Shown here: piece by piece, positions 8,593 through 17,273 of the stretch | Position numbering within the stretch: the stretch's first letter is position 1 | Layout: each line of letters opens with the position of its first letter | IMG/VR virus record: IMGVR_UViG_3300028844_000819 | Coordinates: 1 to 23,316 of that record | DNA from: a virus | Reading direction: 5' to 3' (one strand) | Length of the DNA stretch: 23,316 bases | The notes under the pieces: generated by a model | What the model was told of the DNA's origin: nothing | Seen by the model: the letters and a program-made list of their open reading frames with translations, nothing else | The model's database searches: none | Made by a program: the position numbers and the translations under genes

Positions 8593-9488
8593 TATACAGC
8601 CGCCCCCTCTACGTTAACAAAGTCTGCATCACTCATAGTTTTAGAGATGATCTCTGACATTGCAGGGTCAACTGAGCCACCTGTATTTTTAGATGACCAC
8701 TGGTCAAGTACATAACCGTTAGACCAAGTGATCCACTCAAAGAATCCTCTGAGTACATCGTTATCTGACTCAGCAATCTCTACCTTACCACCTACACCTA
8801 TGATCATAGATGAGTAAGTGTTACCTGTTGGTAGTGTATGCTGATCAGCAGAAAGATCTAACTTGTACTGGATGGGTAGTGCATTCTTTCTTTGAATGGC
8901 TTTCACTGCACCATCTAATGCTTTGATACTATCCCTATTCTTTACATCTAAGATAAAGGGTACATCAGTACCTACATCTGACAGAGCATTACCTTCGGCA
9001 TCGACTGGATTAGTTAGATTAACTGTACCAAATACAACCTTAGTTCTTTTGACTTGTCTCATTAGTTCTTTAGTAGCTTGAGGTAGGCTCTCCCAATCTT
9101 CTACATAACCTGAAGGTCTTCCAATGTTGAAGCCCCCTGTGTTATCTTTGAGGTCACCCTTTAGATCAACAGATAGTACTGTCTTCTGCATCTGACTGCT
9201 TTCACTATCCCAACGTGTCCACTGCTGACGCATGGCGAACACTCGTATCTGTGGCTCAACACTATAAACAACCTTGCCTTCACCTAAGTCTAACTTGTAT
9301 GCACCAGAAGGTATTACTTCTATCTTCATAGGCTTACCTGCTACATCTCTAGTACCCATGATACCTGAATGTATCTGAGTCATCCTCGCTAGGCTTGAGG
9401 ATTTCTTACCACCTTCTCCAACGGACACGCCCATCATCTCTGACATTGACATACCATTCTCTGTGGCTACTGTTATTTCTGTACTCAT
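8592..9488 (-). CDS. Putative single-stranded-DNA-binding protein (by position), 298 aa
   Basis: Sequence similarity was not recognised. The protein has a disordered, Met/Ser-rich N-terminus followed by a beta-rich middle (residues about 50-110) and a C-terminal part ending in FVNVEGAAV; it lacks the strongly acidic tail of T7 gp2.5. It lies directly between DNA polymerase and a nuclease, where phages of this type often place their SSB, and has its own promoter, consistent with a protein needed in many copies. The ATG at 9488 is preferred because AAAGG lies seven bases upstream; an in-frame TTG five codons earlier overlaps that ribosome site. Treat the function as an inference from context. 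Confidence 0.55.
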   Translation of the reverse strand: MSTEITVATENGMSMSEMMGVSVGEGGKKSSSLARMTQIHSGIMGTRDVAGKPMKIEVIPSGAYKLDLGEGKVVYSVEPQIRVFAMRQQWTRWDSESSQMQKTVLSVDLKGDLKDNTGGFNIGRPSGYVEDWESLPQATKELMRQVKRTKVVFGTVNLTNPVDAEGNALSDVGTDVPFILDVKNRDSIKALDGAVKAIQRKNALPIQYKLDLSADQHTLPTGNTYSSMIIGVGGKVEIAESDNDVLRGFFEWITWSNGYVLDQWSSKNTGGSVDPAMSEIISKTMSDADFVNVEGAAV

Positions 9489-9520
9489 TTCTATACCTTT
9501 CAAAAGTTTAAGAACTTATA

Positions 9521-9549
9521 GTTTTACTACACTACGTCTACTGTGTCAA
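9521..9549 (-). promoter_or_regulatory. Sigma-70-like promoter for the SSB-like gene
   Basis: On the minus strand TTGACA (9549-9544) is followed by a 17-base spacer and TAAAAC (9526-9521). The -35 is a perfect consensus and the -10 matches at four of six positions. The -35 lies in the last codons of the polymerase gene and the -10 starts just after its stop codon. The only sizeable gap in this part of the operon (38 bases) is here, and an AAAGG ribosome site follows. Confidence 0.5.
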
Positions 9550-11575
9550 GCCAGTTGTCACCAATTTTTGCTTCTAGTAGCATTGGTACACACATATCGA
9601 TACCGTAGGCTTCATGTATGATATTATCTAAATCTTTATTTAAGTCATCTATTATTTGTAGCACATAATTTATCTCCTTTGGATGTACATCAACTACTGC
9701 TGAGTCGTGTACTGTGTTAACTACACACGACTGTAGTAGCCGTAGTCTCTCTTCTAGTTCCATTACTACGACAGGCACGATGTCTGCTGTAGCTAGTCCT
9801 TGCACTGGGTAGTTCTTAATCATAGTGAAGTGACTAACCTTACCCTTTGGTCTTCGTTGTACATCAGGGAAAGCATACTGCCTACCAGATACATTGGTTA
9901 TCTTCTTAGTAGCTAGTGCCTCTTTAGCTAGAGACTTATGCCACGTAGATATACCTGAGTACTTGTCGTTGAAGTGTGTGTAGTATGCCGCCTCTGCTCT
10001 GCTCCTACCGTACCCACTAGCCCCGAATAAAGGAGCAAATGTATGAGCCTTAGCTTCTTGTCTAGTTGTATGCTGACCTGCATCAGTAATAACTTTAGCT
10101 GTATAACTATGCACATCAAACCCTGTGTTGATCTCATCAATAGCTGTCTTGTCTTCTGATAGATGTGCGGCAACTCTAAACTCTAACTGTGCAAAATCTG
10201 CCTCAAGTATCTGACCACCTTCCCATCGTGATACAAACACTTTCTTTACTGGGAACGTATTACCTCTAGGCATGTTTTGCATATTGGGGTTACGTCCACT
10301 GAACCTACCTGTAGCTGATACGTGTTGGGTAAGTCCAACGTGAAGTAAACCATCAGGCTTAGTGAAGATACTGATACCCTCTACGAATGTAGATAGGTAA
10401 GACGTTAAAGCTGATAGTCTTTTTACATCTTGTATGAATGATACAGCACCACTCATGTTGTTGTTACGTGCTGTACTAATCAACACATCTAAACTATCCT
10501 TGCCTGTCTTGAAACCATTAGCGTTAACCCATGACTTATCTCTAGGTGATAACTTGAAGCCAGCTACAACACCTGTACTGGTTAGTACATAACCCTTAGC
10601 ACTACAGTTAGTACAACCACTAGGCTTCTTAAAGTCTTTACCATCCTTCTTAGTTTTAAATACTTTACCCTTACCTCTACAAGTTAAACATATACTAGCC
10701 TTAGTCTTACTTATAATACTACTGTATGTCTTTAGTGTATCTTTAAACTCTTCAGGTGATACTGATTCAAATGTAGTCACCCAAGTTTTCTTATCAAGGG
10801 GGGTGCGACTAAATAGCACCTTAGACATCTGCTCACCACTGTTAAGATTGATTGGTGTGTCACCCATTAGCTCATGTACTGTCTGGTTAAGTCGTGTCTC
10901 TATCTTATCTTTCTCTTCTTCAAACTCTTTACGCACATCGTTGAGTACATCAGTGTTAATCTTGATACCTGTCATGTACATACGAGTCAGTGTCTTGCAT
11001 ACCTTGAAGGTAATATCCCTGATGTTATGTAAGCTTGCACTCTCTGCTGTGTTGTAGTCTTTCTCTATGCTGTGGTATAATGACGCAGTGGCATTTAGAT
11101 CACACTCTAGATAGAAGCTGAGTTCTTTGAGGGGTATCTCATTAGTGTTGTACCCATCCTTGAAGTACGCTTTGAGTGTGTCATCCTTCTGATGTTCTAA
11201 CTCACGATACTCAACACAAGCCGATAGACTTAGTGGTCTCTTCTGACCACGTAATAGTACATACTCAGCTAACATTGTGTCATATATGTCACCATCATAC
11301 TTGAAACCACTAGCCCACAGCCACATCAAGTCGTGCTGTGCGTTGTGCATAACTAACAGTGTAGCTCTATCTAGTACAGCCTGTAGCTGTCGTGACCTGT
11401 CACCTGATATGTCTTGGTACTCAACGTGGTCAAACGTCATAACGTACTGCTCATCAGGGTTGTCTAAGTTCTGTACCCCTACCTGTGTTAATGTATTAGT
11501 AGGTTCAAAGGGATCTAGATGTGTCTTACCACCTCGTTTAGTTACTGTGTTCTCTACGTCTAGTACCAGTCTCAT
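9527..11575 (-). CDS. Family A DNA polymerase with DnaJ-like zinc insert
   Basis: The replicative polymerase, 682 residues. Exonuclease: D6/E8 (LDVEN), N78...D82 (HNAQHD) and Y155...D159 (YLECD). Polymerase: motif A D460 (EADFAQLEFR), motif B R505, K509, F513 and F517 (Phe at the position of E. coli Pol I 762), motif C H623-D624 (TVHDS, Ser where many enzymes have Glu). Between the domains, residues 296-324 hold two CxxC pairs (C296/C299 followed by RGKGK, and C321/C324 followed by SAKGY), like half of a DnaJ zinc domain. T7 polymerase lacks this. I recall it as a feature of HMO-2011-type phages. The start at 11575, two bases after the upstream stop, places the exonuclease motif correctly; an in-frame start 19 codons earlier would add residues with no family counterpart. 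Confidence 0.95.
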   Translation of the reverse strand: MRLVLDVENTVTKRGGKTHLDPFEPTNTLTQVGVQNLDNPDEQYVMTFDHVEYQDISGDRSRQLQAVLDRATLLVMHNAQHDLMWLWASGFKYDGDIYDTMLAEYVLLRGQKRPLSLSACVEYRELEHQKDDTLKAYFKDGYNTNEIPLKELSFYLECDLNATASLYHSIEKDYNTAESASLHNIRDITFKVCKTLTRMYMTGIKINTDVLNDVRKEFEEEKDKIETRLNQTVHELMGDTPINLNSGEQMSKVLFSRTPLDKKTWVTTFESVSPEEFKDTLKTYSSIISKTKASICLTCRGKGKVFKTKKDGKDFKKPSGCTNCSAKGYVLTSTGVVAGFKLSPRDKSWVNANGFKTGKDSLDVLISTARNNNMSGAVSFIQDVKRLSALTSYLSTFVEGISIFTKPDGLLHVGLTQHVSATGRFSGRNPNMQNMPRGNTFPVKKVFVSRWEGGQILEADFAQLEFRVAAHLSEDKTAIDEINTGFDVHSYTAKVITDAGQHTTRQEAKAHTFAPLFGASGYGRSRAEAAYYTHFNDKYSGISTWHKSLAKEALATKKITNVSGRQYAFPDVQRRPKGKVSHFTMIKNYPVQGLATADIVPVVVMELEERLRLLQSCVVNTVHDSAVVDVHPKEINYVLQIIDDLNKDLDNIIHEAYGIDMCVPMLLEAKIGDNWLDTVDVV

Positions 11576-11577
11576 TA

Positions 11578-12000
11578 TTAGAATAACTCCTTTTGTATAG
11601 GGGGATCTAAAAGATAACCGTCCCATCCCCATTGTGATTTTAAATACTTTATAACTTCTCTAAAGTCTTTCTCTGGATATGTACTCCTACCTAAGTTGGC
11701 AAACCTTGAACATATAACAACAGAACCTTTTATGTAATCGGTTTCTAATCTATCTACACTTATAGATAAAGGATGAAATGATTCCATTATCCATGCAGGA
11801 TTTAACTCAACATCAAACCAGTGGCACTTACATTTTTGTTCATCATAAAACATATGCATCAAGTACTCTGCGGTAAGGTCAACTTCTTTTGTGTTTATCC
11901 TACCATAAGCAAGGGGAGTATCTACACGAGAAGGTGCAGGTCTTGTTGCATTTGTAATAACATTTCTAAGAAGTTTCTTGAAAGGTTCTATCCTATTCAT
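11578..12000 (-). CDS. Putative HNH-like endonuclease
   Basis: A 140-residue protein placed between helicase and polymerase. The region KCKCHWFDVEL (56-66) followed by P77-L-S-I-S-V-D83-R-L-E and G92-S-V-V-I-C-S-R-F-A-N102-L-G-R resembles a phage nuclease family in which a short Cys/aromatic segment precedes an S-[IV]-D-R-[IL]-[DE]...GY..GN core of the HNH (beta-beta-alpha metal) type. The usual Asn after the Gly is Ser here (S93), and the His that anchors a standard HNH is not obvious, so activity is uncertain. An AGGA ribosome site lies eight bases before the ATG. It ends two bases before the polymerase ATG, so the two are probably co-translated. Confidence 0.45.
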   Translation of the reverse strand: MNRIEPFKKLLRNVITNATRPAPSRVDTPLAYGRINTKEVDLTAEYLMHMFYDEQKCKCHWFDVELNPAWIMESFHPLSISVDRLETDYIKGSVVICSRFANLGRSTYPEKDFREVIKYLKSQWGWDGYLLDPPIQKELF

Positions 12001-12015
12001 TGTTAATGTCCTAAT

Positions 12016-13245
12016 CTACGCTGAGTATCTGGCGGTGTCACCATCTAACTCAACTGTTACTCTACCGTGCCACCCACCTTGTAACTTATTTTTAGAAACA
12101 ATCAAGTGTCTTTCTGGATCTTTCTCTCCACTGTCGAAGTCATCCCTGTTCTTACTGATGAGTATCATTAGGTCTGTCTCTGCCGCCTTGCCTGTCTTAC
12201 TACCCTCTAACATTGACTGATCTACGTTGACTACATTCTGTGCTGACGCTGATAGCTGAGACATATAGAAGATAGCACAGCCGTACTGTTTAGCTATGTT
12301 ACGAGCATAGATTGCCGCATCCTTTAAGTACACATCAGACTTATCACTGGTACGTTGAGCAAACTTATCACCCATGTCTAGTACAACTATGTCTGGCTTG
12401 TACCCTTTGATGACAGCCTCAACCCACTCCATAGTCTTACCTGTAGTATCCTTCAATACTAACTGCTCAAGTATAGGGTTGTACTTTTGTGCCGCCTTCA
12501 ATGGGTTAGCTACTATCTGTTTGCTTGTCATACCTGTTGCCGCATTCATGTATCGCTCACCTACCCTGTCGTATGATTCCTCGTTGACTAGCACCATACA
12601 CTTAGCACCTTGATTAGCGAACCCCTTCTCAGAGGCTATGAGAGAAGCATGGAAGGATGTCTTACCTGTATTAGGTCTAGCACCTACCATGATTAAGTGA
12701 CCACCACTCACGCCCTCTATCCTACGAGCAAGGCTAGGGATATTAAACTTCCATTGTGCTTGTGTCTTACTTAACTTCAGTAGTGTATCCATGCTGATGT
12801 CATCCCACTCAACCTTTAAGTTAGGCATGAAGTCATCTTGATAGCTAGAGATTATATTACGTAACGCTTCCATGCTGTGCAACTTACCGTTGACGTAATC
12901 AATACCTATGTTAGCTACCTCTTCACCTACTACCCTCTGGAATAACTTAGACAACACATCGGAAGCTACGTCCTTACTTAAGGCTGTCTCTCTGTCGATC
13001 TTCTTGAACAGATCTCTGAAGACTTCCTTGTTAGCTGTAGTAAGTGTGCCGTTGTTAGCGAAGAACAAAGCCTCAAGTGTAGCTGGTGTAACTGACTGCT
13101 CGTACTTTTCCATAGCGTACTCTAGTGTCTGCTTTATCTTACGTAAATCTTTAGTGAATAACTTATCAGGAAACCTTATACCTTTATGGTCGTCATAGAA
13201 ATCCTTATCCATCATCGTTCTTAGTAGTGCTAGTTCGTGCATCAT
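12016..13245 (-). CDS. Replicative DNA helicase (DnaB/RecA fold)
   Basis: A 409-residue helicase. An N-terminal helical domain of about 160 residues is followed by a RecA-like core: Walker A G188-A-R-P-N-T-G-K-T-S197, an NEES segment (221-224) that can supply the catalytic Glu, Walker B ending in D290 (PDIVVLD), and a motif-3-like YMSQLSASAQN. It unwinds DNA 5'-3' as a hexamer ahead of the polymerase. Unlike T7 gp4, primase and helicase are separate proteins: the start overlaps the primase stop by four bases (ATGA), the typical arrangement for a split pair made in equal amounts. The C-terminal strand-rich segment (HLIVSKNKLQGGWHGRVTVE) matches the DnaB-family end. Confidence 0.9.
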   Translation of the reverse strand: MMHELALLRTMMDKDFYDDHKGIRFPDKLFTKDLRKIKQTLEYAMEKYEQSVTPATLEALFFANNGTLTTANKEVFRDLFKKIDRETALSKDVASDVLSKLFQRVVGEEVANIGIDYVNGKLHSMEALRNIISSYQDDFMPNLKVEWDDISMDTLLKLSKTQAQWKFNIPSLARRIEGVSGGHLIMVGARPNTGKTSFHASLIASEKGFANQGAKCMVLVNEESYDRVGERYMNAATGMTSKQIVANPLKAAQKYNPILEQLVLKDTTGKTMEWVEAVIKGYKPDIVVLDMGDKFAQRTSDKSDVYLKDAAIYARNIAKQYGCAIFYMSQLSASAQNVVNVDQSMLEGSKTGKAAETDLMILISKNRDDFDSGEKDPERHLIVSKNKLQGGWHGRVTVELDGDTARYSA

Positions 13246-14048
13246 GTTGTGTACTCCTTTAGTTTTAATATGTCTTCTTCTGTTTTATATTTAATGTCAT
13301 CTTGTAACATCATTACCATAGTGGTTACCCCTGTCCAAGACTCAATCTCTTTCTTATATTTTATACTCTTATGTGTAGCGTCAGGGTCGAGTGCTACAAT
13401 AATCTTTGTGTAGTCCTGTAAGTATTCCATATGTGTGTGACTAATATTTGTACCTAAGATAGCTATGCCTGTGACATTTGGACACACCTTTGCCACAGTG
13501 ATAGCACTGATTACATCCTCTACTATTACAGCTACACCATTAGGCTCACCCATACACTTACTAAATACAGTAGCGTTACCAGTATACCTGAGCCACTTAG
13601 GTACAGAGCCACTGAGTGACCTGCCTATAGCGTCTATAACCTTATGCTTATCTCGTATGAGAAACACAACACGCTCATCCTTAACGTCATACATCACATC
13701 CATATATTCATTCTCTAAGCCCCACCTAGATACAAATCTATGGTAGTTAGTTTGAGAAGGCTCAGGGTATGTGATGTACTCAGGTATTATAAATGTAGGT
13801 ATTACATTTGATACTGATTCTTTTTTGTAGTTAGCTATCTTCTTTTCAATCTCTAAAATAGATAGATTAATATTTTGCATACCTTGAGTTACGCAATCAA
13901 GTTTATAACAATTATATAAAACAACACCGTCTTCTCTTGTAGCAGTAAAAGTATTAAACGAACCACAGACAGGGCAGTCACCCCTAAAGTTCTCATCACT
14001 TTTTAAATAGAGATCCTCAATATATTCTTTGAGATTATTTCTTTCCAT
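13242..14048 (-). CDS. DNA primase with zinc finger and Toprim domain
   Basis: A 268-residue primase that makes RNA primers for lagging-strand synthesis. A Cys4 zinc finger lies at C25, C28, C47 and C52 (DCPVCGS... and NCYKLDC). The Toprim core shows the conserved Glu E177 (VIVEDVISA), the GTN turn at 199-201 and the DPD pair D221/D223 (IIVALDPDA). It corresponds to the N-terminal half of T7 gp4 as a stand-alone protein, partnered with the overlapping helicase gene. The ATG at 14048 was chosen because AAGGAG lies about five bases upstream and because earlier in-frame codons lie in the integrase coding sequence, which it already overlaps by 14 bases. Confidence 0.9.
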   Translation of the reverse strand: MERNNLKEYIEDLYLKSDENFRGDCPVCGSFNTFTATREDGVVLYNCYKLDCVTQGMQNINLSILEIEKKIANYKKESVSNVIPTFIIPEYITYPEPSQTNYHRFVSRWGLENEYMDVMYDVKDERVVFLIRDKHKVIDAIGRSLSGSVPKWLRYTGNATVFSKCMGEPNGVAVIVEDVISAITVAKVCPNVTGIAILGTNISHTHMEYLQDYTKIIVALDPDATHKSIKYKKEIESWTGVTTMVMMLQDDIKYKTEEDILKLKEYTT

Positions 14049-14955
14049 TCCTTCTCCTTTCTTGTGCATCCTTTGCACCACTAAATGTATTAACTAAGTA
14101 AGGCACTAGACTTTGATGTGACTGATGCCCTGTCACTTGCTTTATACCTATCCAATCGACACCTACTTCTGACATCTCAACGACAGCAGTACGCCTAAGA
14201 TCCCTAGCTTGTAGCTCATCAGGTAGATTAACTTCTACCTTTATCTGTTTGAAAAGTTTAGATATTTCATCTTCCTTGTAGTGAGAATAGATACCTGCCC
14301 TTGCTACAGTGCGAGGTGCTACATACTCTGATAACCCATCGTACTCTTCTCTTTGTTTATACAACACTTTAGTTAATGAGTCACCAATAAATAAATGTAC
14401 ATCTACTCCTCTTTTGTTTTGGTGTATGTCCATTCTCTGTGCTTCTAAATCTAAAGAGTCCCACTTCAACAAACGTATATCGCCAACACGTTGACCTGAT
14501 TCATACAGTATATGACATATCAATCCAATGCTACGCCATTTAAAATCTGAGTAGGCAGTGTCTAAAAATAGTTTAACTTGATCGTGAGTCCATAAGGTTC
14601 TACGTGGTTTACATTTTAATTTAGGTACAAGTGCCATCAAATTTTGAGGTATGATACTGTGTCTAATACAATCGTTTAATACTATACTAACATTAGTTGC
14701 TATGTAGTTAGCAGACCTAGTGCCTTTATCTAACCATACATCGTATGCTGTCTGAAGATGAGCATACCTTATATCTTTTACTGGTGTTGTAGCTAACATC
14801 CTATTCCCTTTTATCTTAGTATTACAAGCAACTTTAAGATTGCTTATGTATTTTTTCTGTGTAGCTATAGTTAAAGCACAGAAAGATTTACTTCTCATGT
14901 AGTAACTACACGCAGTTTCAAAAGTTGAGTTATGTTTCAATTCAATATGTTTCAT
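14035..14955 (-). CDS. int: Tyrosine recombinase (integrase)
   Basis: A 306-residue phage integrase: an N-terminal SAM-like DNA-binding domain (about 10-110) and a catalytic domain with R156 (ESGQRVGD), K181 (QNKRG), R254 (RDLRRT), H277 (TGHQS) and nucleophile Y286 (VPYL), nine residues after the His as expected. The first His of the usual H-x-x-R box is Arg here (R251). It catalyses site-specific recombination and suggests the phage can integrate, or descends from one that could. The gene sits inside the replication operon, between a 24-residue membrane peptide (overlapping start) and primase (14-base overlap), so it is probably expressed with the early genes. No attP core resembling a tRNA 3' end was found next to it. 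Confidence 0.92.
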   Translation of the reverse strand: MKHIELKHNSTFETACSYYMRSKSFCALTIATQKKYISNLKVACNTKIKGNRMLATTPVKDIRYAHLQTAYDVWLDKGTRSANYIATNVSIVLNDCIRHSIIPQNLMALVPKLKCKPRRTLWTHDQVKLFLDTAYSDFKWRSIGLICHILYESGQRVGDIRLLKWDSLDLEAQRMDIHQNKRGVDVHLFIGDSLTKVLYKQREEYDGLSEYVAPRTVARAGIYSHYKEDEISKLFKQIKVEVNLPDELQARDLRRTAVVEMSEVGVDWIGIKQVTGHQSHQSLVPYLVNTFSGAKDAQERRRNGKK

Positions 14956-15355: not shown

Positions 15356-15521
15356 CGTCTTCTATCCTTTCTATTGTTATGTTGTTAGATAGCGTACCTG
15401 TATCTCTATACGCTAAGGCATAATAGTCAGCCCAGATAGCTAAGTGTCTGTATAACTCATACGGATCACCACTGTCCACCAATACATTTGGTTCTGTCAT
15501 TGTGATGTTGTACTTAGGCAT
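15348..15521 (-). CDS. Small protein of a duplicated pair, copy A, 57 aa
   Basis: It starts MPKYNITMTE and contains DSGDPYELYRHLAIWADYYAL (residues 16-36), a predicted helix rich in Tyr and Trp. It is about 70% identical (37 of 53 positions, hand count) to the protein at 16818-16961. In both copies the similarity begins at the same place, overlapping the stop codon of an unrelated upstream gene in the shared string CCTAAGTAC. Conservation at the protein level between the copies, with many silent changes, shows that this short frame is a real gene. Function unknown. Confidence 0.75.
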   Translation of the reverse strand: MPKYNITMTEPNVLVDSGDPYELYRHLAIWADYYALAYRDTGTLSNNITIERIEDDD

Positions 15522-15951
15522 CCATGAACCAATCTGGTTTTACTCTGTTCTTATTCCACCTAGCAAAGCTAACCTTGTCACGCTTATAGAATGCACGATA
15601 CGCATTGATAGGGTAGTCCTCGTCTGTCTTGAGACCTTTGAACAAAGCAAAAGCGTGTTTACCTGCACCATGATACTTACCATACCTGTGGGTATATTCA
15701 CTCAACATACTCTGGTATGTCAGCCGAGCAAAGGAATAGTTAGCACGTGTCTTCATTGCCCATAGTGTACATGGGTGCTTCTGATGTACTGGTTTGTACA
15801 ACTCATTCTCCTCTGCATACTCTGGTGCATGATGCCACAGGCTAGTGCATAGCATCTGTGCTTCTTCTAGTGGCATCTTCACTACGTGTTGGTCACACAA
15901 CGCTTTAGCTATAGCGTCAGGGTGGTAGTCTACTATAAATCTATTCATCAT
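15514..15951 (-). CDS. Conserved marine-phage protein of unknown function, 145 aa
   Basis: The sequence has features I associate with a widespread family in marine phages: D-Q/K-H-V-V-K-M (residues 20-26), an E-x-A-Q-M-L segment, HPCTLWA (59-65), S-E-Y-x-x-R-Y-G-K-x-H (about 84-94), and an AYRAFYKRDK...W...PDWF C-terminus. Many His, Cys, Tyr and Trp residues suggest an enzyme or nucleic-acid-binding protein, but no activity is known to me. The first of two adjacent ATG codons (15951, 15948) lies in the end of the broken Mom-like gene. Its last codons overlap the start of copy A of the duplicated pair. Confidence 0.75.
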   Translation of the reverse strand: MMNRFIVDYHPDAIAKALCDQHVVKMPLEEAQMLCTSLWHHAPEYAEENELYKPVHQKHPCTLWAMKTRANYSFARLTYQSMLSEYTHRYGKYHGAGKHAFALFKGLKTDEDYPINAYRAFYKRDKVSFARWNKNRVKPDWFMDA

Positions 15952-16569
15952 TATTCCCCTTTTTCCATTTTACTTCTAGTGTATTATCAAACACTTTTAA
16001 AAATCTGTGTTTGCGTGAACGTGGTCTCCATTCACCTTCAAGATGTTTGGTTGCACCACGATTATGTTTTATGTATGTGCCATCATTTTGTTTTATCCAA
16101 AAGTCAGACTTCATATCAGTTTTATCCAAAAGTCAGACTTCATATCAGTCAGATCATAATAGTCAAAACCTAACGCTTTGTAAACAGTACCACTGTGGTA
16201 GTCATCATCAGCGTAAGATAGTATAGCCCTCACATTATTCTTTTCTTTCAATAACTTAATAGACCTAGCTACAAACCACCCTGCTAAATTGTGTTCACGC
16301 ACTTGGTGGTCTGGGTGTAGTACTAAACGTGACAACTCATACAACCCTTCCTGATTGTTTCTATCTAGTCCAAACATACCTTTGCTTAACTCAGGTACAG
16401 GTAGTCCAGTAAAGATACAGACACCTACAACTGTGTCAAGATACATTAAACCATAGTTATCACCTGACTTAAATCCTCGTGATATATTTGTAAGATAGTG
16501 ATGTGCTTGTAATAAATCAGCACACTCACCCTTAGTTATACAACGAATAGTATAGTCAGACTTAGACAT
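15941..16569 (-). pseudogene. Mom-like (GNAT-fold) DNA-modification protein split by a 29-bp tandem duplication
   Basis: The upstream frame (16569-16111, 152 aa) has an AHHYL motif (H24, Y25), E78-L-S-R81, and the SYADDDYHSGTVYKALGF block (118-135), typical of phage Mom-like acyltransferase-fold proteins, which convert adenine in DNA to a modified base that blocks restriction. The frame then hits a stop after DFWIKLI. The remaining C-terminus lies in another frame (16129-15941; WIKQNDG... HNRGATKHLEGEW...), which lacks a ribosome site. The 29-bp repeat at 16092-16149 causes the break: removing one copy restores a single 199-residue gene. A -1 slip on AAAA at the junction would also rejoin the parts with a duplicated 10-residue segment. 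The start at 16569 follows a GGGGG ribosome site. It could be a true pseudogene, a split gene or an assembly artefact. Confidence 0.65.
16092..16149. repeat. Perfect 29-bp tandem direct repeat (two copies)
   Basis: Bases 16092-16120 are repeated exactly at 16121-16149. The length is not a multiple of three, so the duplication shifts the reading frame of the Mom-like gene it lies in. Perfect identity implies a recent event. Confidence 0.95.
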
Positions 16570-16581
16570 TCATTATCCCCC

Positions 16582-16818
16582 TTACATTATGTTTGGTGGT
16601 ACACTATGCACATAGTCATAGTCTTTATACTCCTCAGACTCCCAGTCCTCACAGAAGAGTAGGTCTATCTTAGCATCTGGTATGTTATAGTCAACCAGTT
16701 TAAAAGCAAACTCCACAGCACTCTTCCAGTCATGTACGTCAGGATATGTGTCATCACATTCCACTATTTTCTCAGTACCATTTACTGACAGTCCTATTTT
16801 ATATCTATCTACAGACAT
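16582..16818 (-). CDS. Hypothetical protein, 78 aa
   Basis: The protein begins MSVDRYKIGLSVNG (a beta-like strand), followed by an acidic centre and a C-terminal stretch rich in Glu, Asp and Tyr (residues 55-71, EDWESEEYKDYDYVH). No family recognised. The start shares a base with the stop of copy B of the duplicated pair (TAATG), and it ends 12 bases before the start of the Mom-like gene, with the latter's ribosome site in the gap. Confidence 0.65.
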   Translation of the reverse strand: MSVDRYKIGLSVNGTEKIVECDDTYPDVHDWKSAVEFAFKLVDYNIPDAKIDLLFCEDWESEEYKDYDYVHSVPPNIM

Positions 16819-16961
16819 TAATCTATCTCCTTTATTGTTACATTGCTAGGTAGTATACCATACTCTTTGTATTGTAAAGCATAATAGTCAGCCCACATAG
16901 CCAAGTGTCTGTACATCTCATACGGATCACCTGAATCTATTAGTATATTTTGTTCTGTCAT
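16818..16961 (-). CDS. Small protein of a duplicated pair, copy B, 47 aa
   Basis: A paralogue of the 57-residue protein at 15348-15521, with DSGDPYEMYRHLAMWADYYAL (residues 9-29). The similarity extends seven codons upstream of this ATG (PKYNIT), but where copy A has its ATG, copy B has ATT (16982-16980), directly overlapping the upstream gene's stop. Either initiation moved to the internal ATG at 16961, or the rare ATT start is used, giving 54 residues. I annotate the ATG. The stop overlaps the next gene (TAATG). Function unknown. Confidence 0.7.
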   Translation of the reverse strand: MTEQNILIDSGDPYEMYRHLAMWADYYALQYKEYGILPSNVTIKEID

Positions 16962-16974
16962 TGTAATGTTGTAC

Positions 16975-17187
16975 TTAGGAATCTTTCATCTCCTCTAGTT
17001 CTGCAACCACGAATGGGTCAAGGTAATTCTCTATGATAGTTATCTGATCTTGGATATGTTCTATATCTTTTTGTAGAACGAGTATCTTCATAGGGTGGTG
17101 GTTAACCTGCACAAAATCACAGTCATCCATTAGACACGCAATAGATATACTTGCCTCACGTACTGCCTCTAATACTTTATCTGTCAT
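16975..17187 (-). CDS. Hypothetical protein, 70 aa
   Basis: A helical protein beginning MTDKVLEAVREAS and ending in a Glu-rich helix EMKDS. No family recognised. A longer in-frame reading (start 17379) would run through two other genes and gives low-complexity, gene-unlike sequence, so the ATG at 17187 is chosen. It overlaps the TGA of the membrane peptide upstream (ATGA at 17187-17184), and together with that peptide and the 69-residue protein forms a chain of three overlapping genes. Confidence 0.65.
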   Translation of the reverse strand: MTDKVLEAVREASISIACLMDDCDFVQVNHHPMKILVLQKDIEHIQDQITIIENYLDPFVVAELEEMKDS

Positions 17188-17273
17188 CCTGTTAACGCTT
17201 TTACTAAAAAGTATAGCGTCACTAAAGATGCTACTGCTAGTATTATTATTAGTCTTCTGTAAGTTAGTTTCAT
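17184..17273 (-). CDS. Single-helix membrane peptide, 29 aa
   Basis: It begins MKLTYRR and continues as a hydrophobic stretch of Leu, Ile, Val and Ala from residue 9 to about 23, ending VKALTG. The positive N-terminus and length fit an N-in single-span peptide. The ATG shares a base with the upstream stop (TAATG at 17275-17271) and its TGA overlaps the next ATG. The C-terminal LTG and its nucleotide context (TAACAGGAT) also occur at the end of the 30-residue peptide at 17500-17592, hinting at common origin or a shared ribosome site. Function unknown. Confidence 0.6.
   Translation of the reverse strand: MKLTYRRLIIILAVASLVTLYFLVKALTG

Follow-up and report, generated by a model that had tools for sequence, protein, structure and literature searches.

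We analyzed a window of 23,316 nt, an IMG/VR record of a marine phage of the HMO-2011 type obtained from environmental DNA, and observed that its mom-like gene is a broken member of the Mom family. A perfect 29-nt tandem duplication interrupts the reading frame, and this break was absent from all the relatives examined. Sequence comparison with these relatives indicates that the duplication arose very recently and is confined to this contig. On balance, we lean slightly toward a real duplication that has no function, an assembly slip being somewhat less likely.

A repeat scan confirmed that the mom-like gene contains two exact tandem copies of a 29-nt unit, as claimed in a sequence-only reading of the same DNA. 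The gene is located on the minus strand, with the first copy in reading order at 16119-16147 and the second at 16090-16118, forming a perfect direct repeat of period 29. Comparison at a lag of 29 nt gave 31 consecutive matches. The whole perfect run therefore covers 16090-16149 and the register of the repeat is free by 2 nt, so that the positions first proposed for the two copies (16092-16120 and 16121-16149) are one valid register of this run. The boundary homology of the duplicated unit is 2 nt. No other perfect tandem duplication with a unit of 15-80 nt was present in the whole window, and the same scan over 441,303 nt of related loci returned only two (27-nt and 16-nt units), both located outside mom. 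These results indicate that the 29-nt repeat did not arise by chance matching.

The gene occupies 629 nt of the minus strand (15941-16569), with an ATG start and a TAG end that do not belong to one frame. Its 5' part (16111-16569, minus strand) is an ORF of 152 aa corresponding to residues 1-150 of the protein of the relatives, followed by LI and a TGA stop at 16113-16111. The 3' part (15941-16114, minus strand) corresponds to residues 143-199 and is out of frame with the 5' part; it has 57 codons from an ATG at 16114-16112, and in the ORF list it starts from a TTG codon (15941-16129, 62 aa). On the same strand, the stop of the 5' part and this possible restart overlap in an ATGA at 16111-16114, and an A-AAA tetramer at 16120-16123 is a place where a -1 slip would rejoin the two frames. 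The proposal that the duplication shifts the frame was thus borne out, with a stop after 152 codons and the conserved tail in another frame down to 15941. The single 199-codon frame expected from one copy was likewise found, as an unbroken ORF, in four near-identical one-copy relatives. An intact member of Mom (PF25680) keeps its frame through the C-terminal part; in the window gene, the frame breaks after residue 150.

Mom of phage Mu is a GNAT-fold enzyme that modifies adenine and blocks restriction. The 5' part of the window gene matched the Pfam family Mom, PF25680, above its curated cut-off (58.9 bits, E 7e-16, for a cut-off of 27.1), and the Mom-like family phrog_1384 (E 1e-22). An intact relative reached 65.5 bits against PF25680, and in intact relatives the end of the match moved from profile position 134 to 164 for PF25680 and from 155 to 202 for phrog_1384. 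This lengthening in the unbroken relatives indicates that the out-of-frame piece also belongs to the Mom family. A profile built from 45 relatives found the methylcarbamoylase Mom of phage Mu (PDB 8bv8) with an E of 2.6e-7. The AlphaFold2 model of the intact relative L002, which is not the product of the window (mean pLDDT 93), matched 8bv8 over residues 1-199 (Z 18.4, rmsd 3.7, 182 aligned, the next entry having a Z of 14.3), and 8bv8 ranked first in a Foldseek search with the same intact-relative model. The likeness to Mu Mom lies in the profile match and in the whole-length fold of the relatives, whereas the identity is only 18% and the window copy, unlike Mu Mom, is frameshifted. Taken together, the two families, the profile of the relatives and the fold match support the Mom-like assignment first made from the sequence.

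Four contigs carry a mom gene 98.8-100% identical at the DNA level to that of the window, each of these records bearing two names (L002/L088, L003/L090, L004/L091 and L005/L089). In contrast to the window gene, from which they differ by 0 to 7 SNPs in 600 nt, all four possess one 29-nt copy and one intact 199-codon ORF (for L003/L090, by alignment). The counts were 5 SNPs for L003, 1 for L004 and 7 for L005. For L002/L088, the extra 29 nt are the sole difference, with 0 SNPs in the 422 nt before the repeat and 0 in the 178 nt from the second copy on; this absence of SNPs in 600 nt agrees with the recent origin deduced earlier from the identity of the copies. L006, whose protein is 83% identical, likewise carries one copy in a single unbroken ORF. 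The one-copy junction was found in 4 viral contigs. The two-copy junction, sought with an exact 38-mer and a degenerate 25-mer, was found in 0, in a search that would miss diverged copies and possibly omits the records nearest to the window. An unrelated 30-mer located upstream in the mom gene matched the same 4 contigs, so that the contig count is not biased by the repeat.

In a wider alignment search, we kept the best 80 of 132 relatives, which together with Roseobacter phage CRP-212 gave 81 loci holding 60 distinct proteins (L008-L012 are the same contigs as L002-L006). With tblastn, each of these 81 loci gave one uninterrupted alignment of 190-207 residues, whereas the window gave two alignments in different frames. 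A natural arrangement as two genes at this point, which the sequence-only reading had named as evidence against a break, was rejected, as mom is whole in 81 of 81 homologous loci (best 80 of 132 plus CRP-212). There is thus clear pressure on the gene to remain whole, and the window contig alone shows the break. A scan of genome contigs returned 29 relatives, none of them close to the window gene (best 60%).

Among 45 homologues, 44 columns are invariant and 12 of these lie after residue 150 (K158 to L188). The model of the intact relative has strands at 156-158, 169-173 and 177-183, forming a confident beta region past the break. The duplication therefore sets the GNAT core apart from a structured C-terminal region with 12 of the 44 invariant residues, and loss of function is the plain expectation for a 5' part lacking them. 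Since 29 nt do not make up a whole number of codons, a ribosome translating the GNAT core would reach a stop after residue 152, and the protein would lack the conserved beta structure of its C-terminus, so that, judging from the predicted fold and the conserved columns, the Mom product of the window is most likely inactive.

The core genes of HMO-2011-type phages were detected in the window by tblastn with CRP-212 proteins, namely RNR (78% identity), polymerase (37%), helicase (35%) and primase (30%). Compared to L088, the window is SNP-free over 15791-17100 (1,310 nt) apart from the 29 nt, and the longer alignable stretches elsewhere are 67-69% identical. Compared to L091, it is 92% identical over 9204-14749 and SNP-free over 15952-16910 (959 nt). 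Such a mom block (window 15634-17231) has the appearance of a recent exchange between phages or of a chimeric assembly, and on the alignments we regard it as recently exchanged. The block also contains a 78-aa ORF upstream of mom (16582-16818, minus strand), identical in L002 and L091. Downstream, an overlapping gene of 145 aa (15514-15951, minus strand; phrog_624, with a weak Pyr_excise match) is mosaic, its 5' part being L088-like and its 3' part L091-like with a changeover near 15634, and a 63-nt in-frame deletion absent from all four close relatives is located at this changeover. A 179-nt direct repeat, D1, lies on either side of the mom block (15361-15539 and 16822-17000, 75-78% identical). 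D1 was rejected as a regulatory element, since its two copies are small ORFs paralogous to each other (47 and 57 aa in L091); these ORFs possibly offer homology for the exchange of the block. Rfam and tRNA scans of the window found nothing, and promoter-like sites in the window were at the level of shuffled sequences.

We also observed that Mom is fused to a C-terminal MazG-like region in 14 of the 81 loci (best 80 of 132 relatives plus CRP-212): L007 (4001-4933), L018 (cut by the contig end), L024-L028, L030, L032, L036, L037, L053, L055 and L057. Three of the four fusions checked passed the Pfam cut-off for MazG, L053 scoring 18.5 for a cut-off of 22. In CRP-212, an HMO-2011-type phage, gp15 carries a Mom 62% identical to that of the window and, unlike the window gene, is unbroken and fused to a MazG domain. 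The annotation of this protein begins at an internal start, 183 nt (61 codons) into Mom, and its name refers to MazG alone, which leaves its Mom domain unnamed. The word Mom is absent from the main text of a paper on HMO-2011-type phages (PMC9038755).

An assembly artefact, already considered in the sequence-only reading, is a serious rival, with somewhat less than an even chance, since the repeat is part of an identical block that was exchanged recently and is next to a second private indel. Two partial contigs sharing a 29-nt overlap would have been abutted without being collapsed, in a block common to several co-occurring phages; by an alternative route, gap closing would have misplaced a 29-nt overlap, and the real phage would possess one copy and a working Mom. 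The perfection of the repeat, flanks that both match a one-copy relative at every base and a two-copy state seen in no other contig found are in line with such an error. The block is moreover identical between phages of different backbones, and assemblers often break and rejoin at a place of this kind, where 1,310 SNP-free nt stand against a backbone of 67-69% identity. The identical block nevertheless reaches well past the repeat on both sides, so that no visible chimera border coincides with the repeat. The 63-nt indel, which only the window carries, is found about 455 nt from the repeat, at the mosaic changeover, but it preserves the reading frame, as expected of a genuine change under selection. 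Real recombination can leave two such private indels within about 500 nt of each other in a block common to different backbones, and an assembler can produce them too. Errors of this type would be rare, given the two perfect tandem duplications (15-80-nt units) in 441,303 nt of comparable contigs. In addition, seven other comparable genes and a separate mazG segment of the window align with CRP-212 in single frames and only mom switches, which indicates that the contig is not generally poor. By a slight margin, we infer that the duplicated DNA is real rather than an assembly slip; one assembled contig is its sole witness, which counts against the reading that we prefer.

A reversible switch, a split enzyme and programmed frameshifting together take up less than a tenth of the probability. 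A switch would mean that Mom is turned off and on in the population as the 29-nt copy is gained and lost, which we consider very improbable. By their nature, perfect tandem copies can revert through slippage, and the gene occurs with one copy and with two in otherwise identical form; however, one two-copy contig stands against four one-copy contigs with a near-identical gene, all 81 loci (the 80 best of 132 relatives, and CRP-212) are in the intact state, and neither a repeat array nor a dedicated recombinase site was seen, the boundary homology being 2 nt. The phase-variable switch suggested from the letters alone gained no positive evidence, as no second two-copy contig occurred among the four with a near-identical gene and the relatives showed no repeat array. 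What the window shares with the general class of phase variation by short repeats and slippage is a copy-number change that shifts the frame and is revertible in principle, and it differs by a single extra copy, seen once, with no array and no recurrence. Among the matches listed for the literature on reversible tandem duplications, no title concerned Mom. In a split enzyme, even less probable than the switch, the two parts would be co-translated through the ATGA overlap at 16114-16111 and assemble into an active Mom. The overlapping stop and possible restart would permit this, as would the 8 residues shared by the two parts, which jointly hold all the residues of the protein of the relatives, and both features count against an absence of function. 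No split relative was found, all 81 loci (best 80 of 132 plus CRP-212) being unbroken, and M143 is not conserved, occurring only in the 4 near-identical loci (TDMKS) among the 81. In addition, no strong Shine-Dalgarno sequence precedes the internal ATG, unlike the starts of mom and of the downstream gene, and the break takes predicted strands away from one and the same domain. A duplication yielding a translationally coupled two-piece enzyme, or reversibly silencing a spreading mom block where modification is costly, is improbable when the two are taken as one proposal. As for the -1 slip at A-AAA (16123-16120), the arithmetic of the sequence-only reading holds, as the tetramer is in the right frame and a slip would give 209 codons, while nothing shows that it occurs. 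We give almost no credence to such a 209-residue protein, whether programmed or leaky. Of the 81 loci, 8 have the A-AAA at the site (ATAAAA) and 28 do not even possess the DFWxK motif, and one-copy relatives with the same tetramer need no slip, which counts against frameshifting. No stimulatory RNA structure was found downstream of the slip site (z = 0.71, 147 of 200 shuffles folding at least as well). Programmed frameshifting was therefore rejected, the slip site not being conserved and the downstream RNA being unstructured.

Overall, the real, functionless duplication would be explained as follows. A marine HMO-2011-type phage would carry a block gained not long ago and bearing a gene of the Mom family, in which a 29-nt stretch would have been copied once in tandem, in this contig alone. 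The simplest origin would be a replication slip or an end-joining event, the boundaries sharing 2 nt of homology. The outcome would be a loss-of-function allele of recent date, either neutral or slightly deleterious in hosts that do not restrict the phage. Loss of DNA modification in a host without matching restriction, one of the options named in the sequence-only reading, may apply here, and the duplication would represent a chance allele and not an evolved switch.

If the duplication is real, it provides a snapshot of a counter-defence gene lost just after its exchange between phages, and helps to time the gain and loss of anti-restriction genes in populations of marine phages. If it is an artefact, it cautions that a frameshift seen in a single metagenome contig, within a recently exchanged block, needs a read check. 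The mobile mom block of HMO-2011-type phages and the Mom-MazG fusions may outlast the duplication in usefulness.
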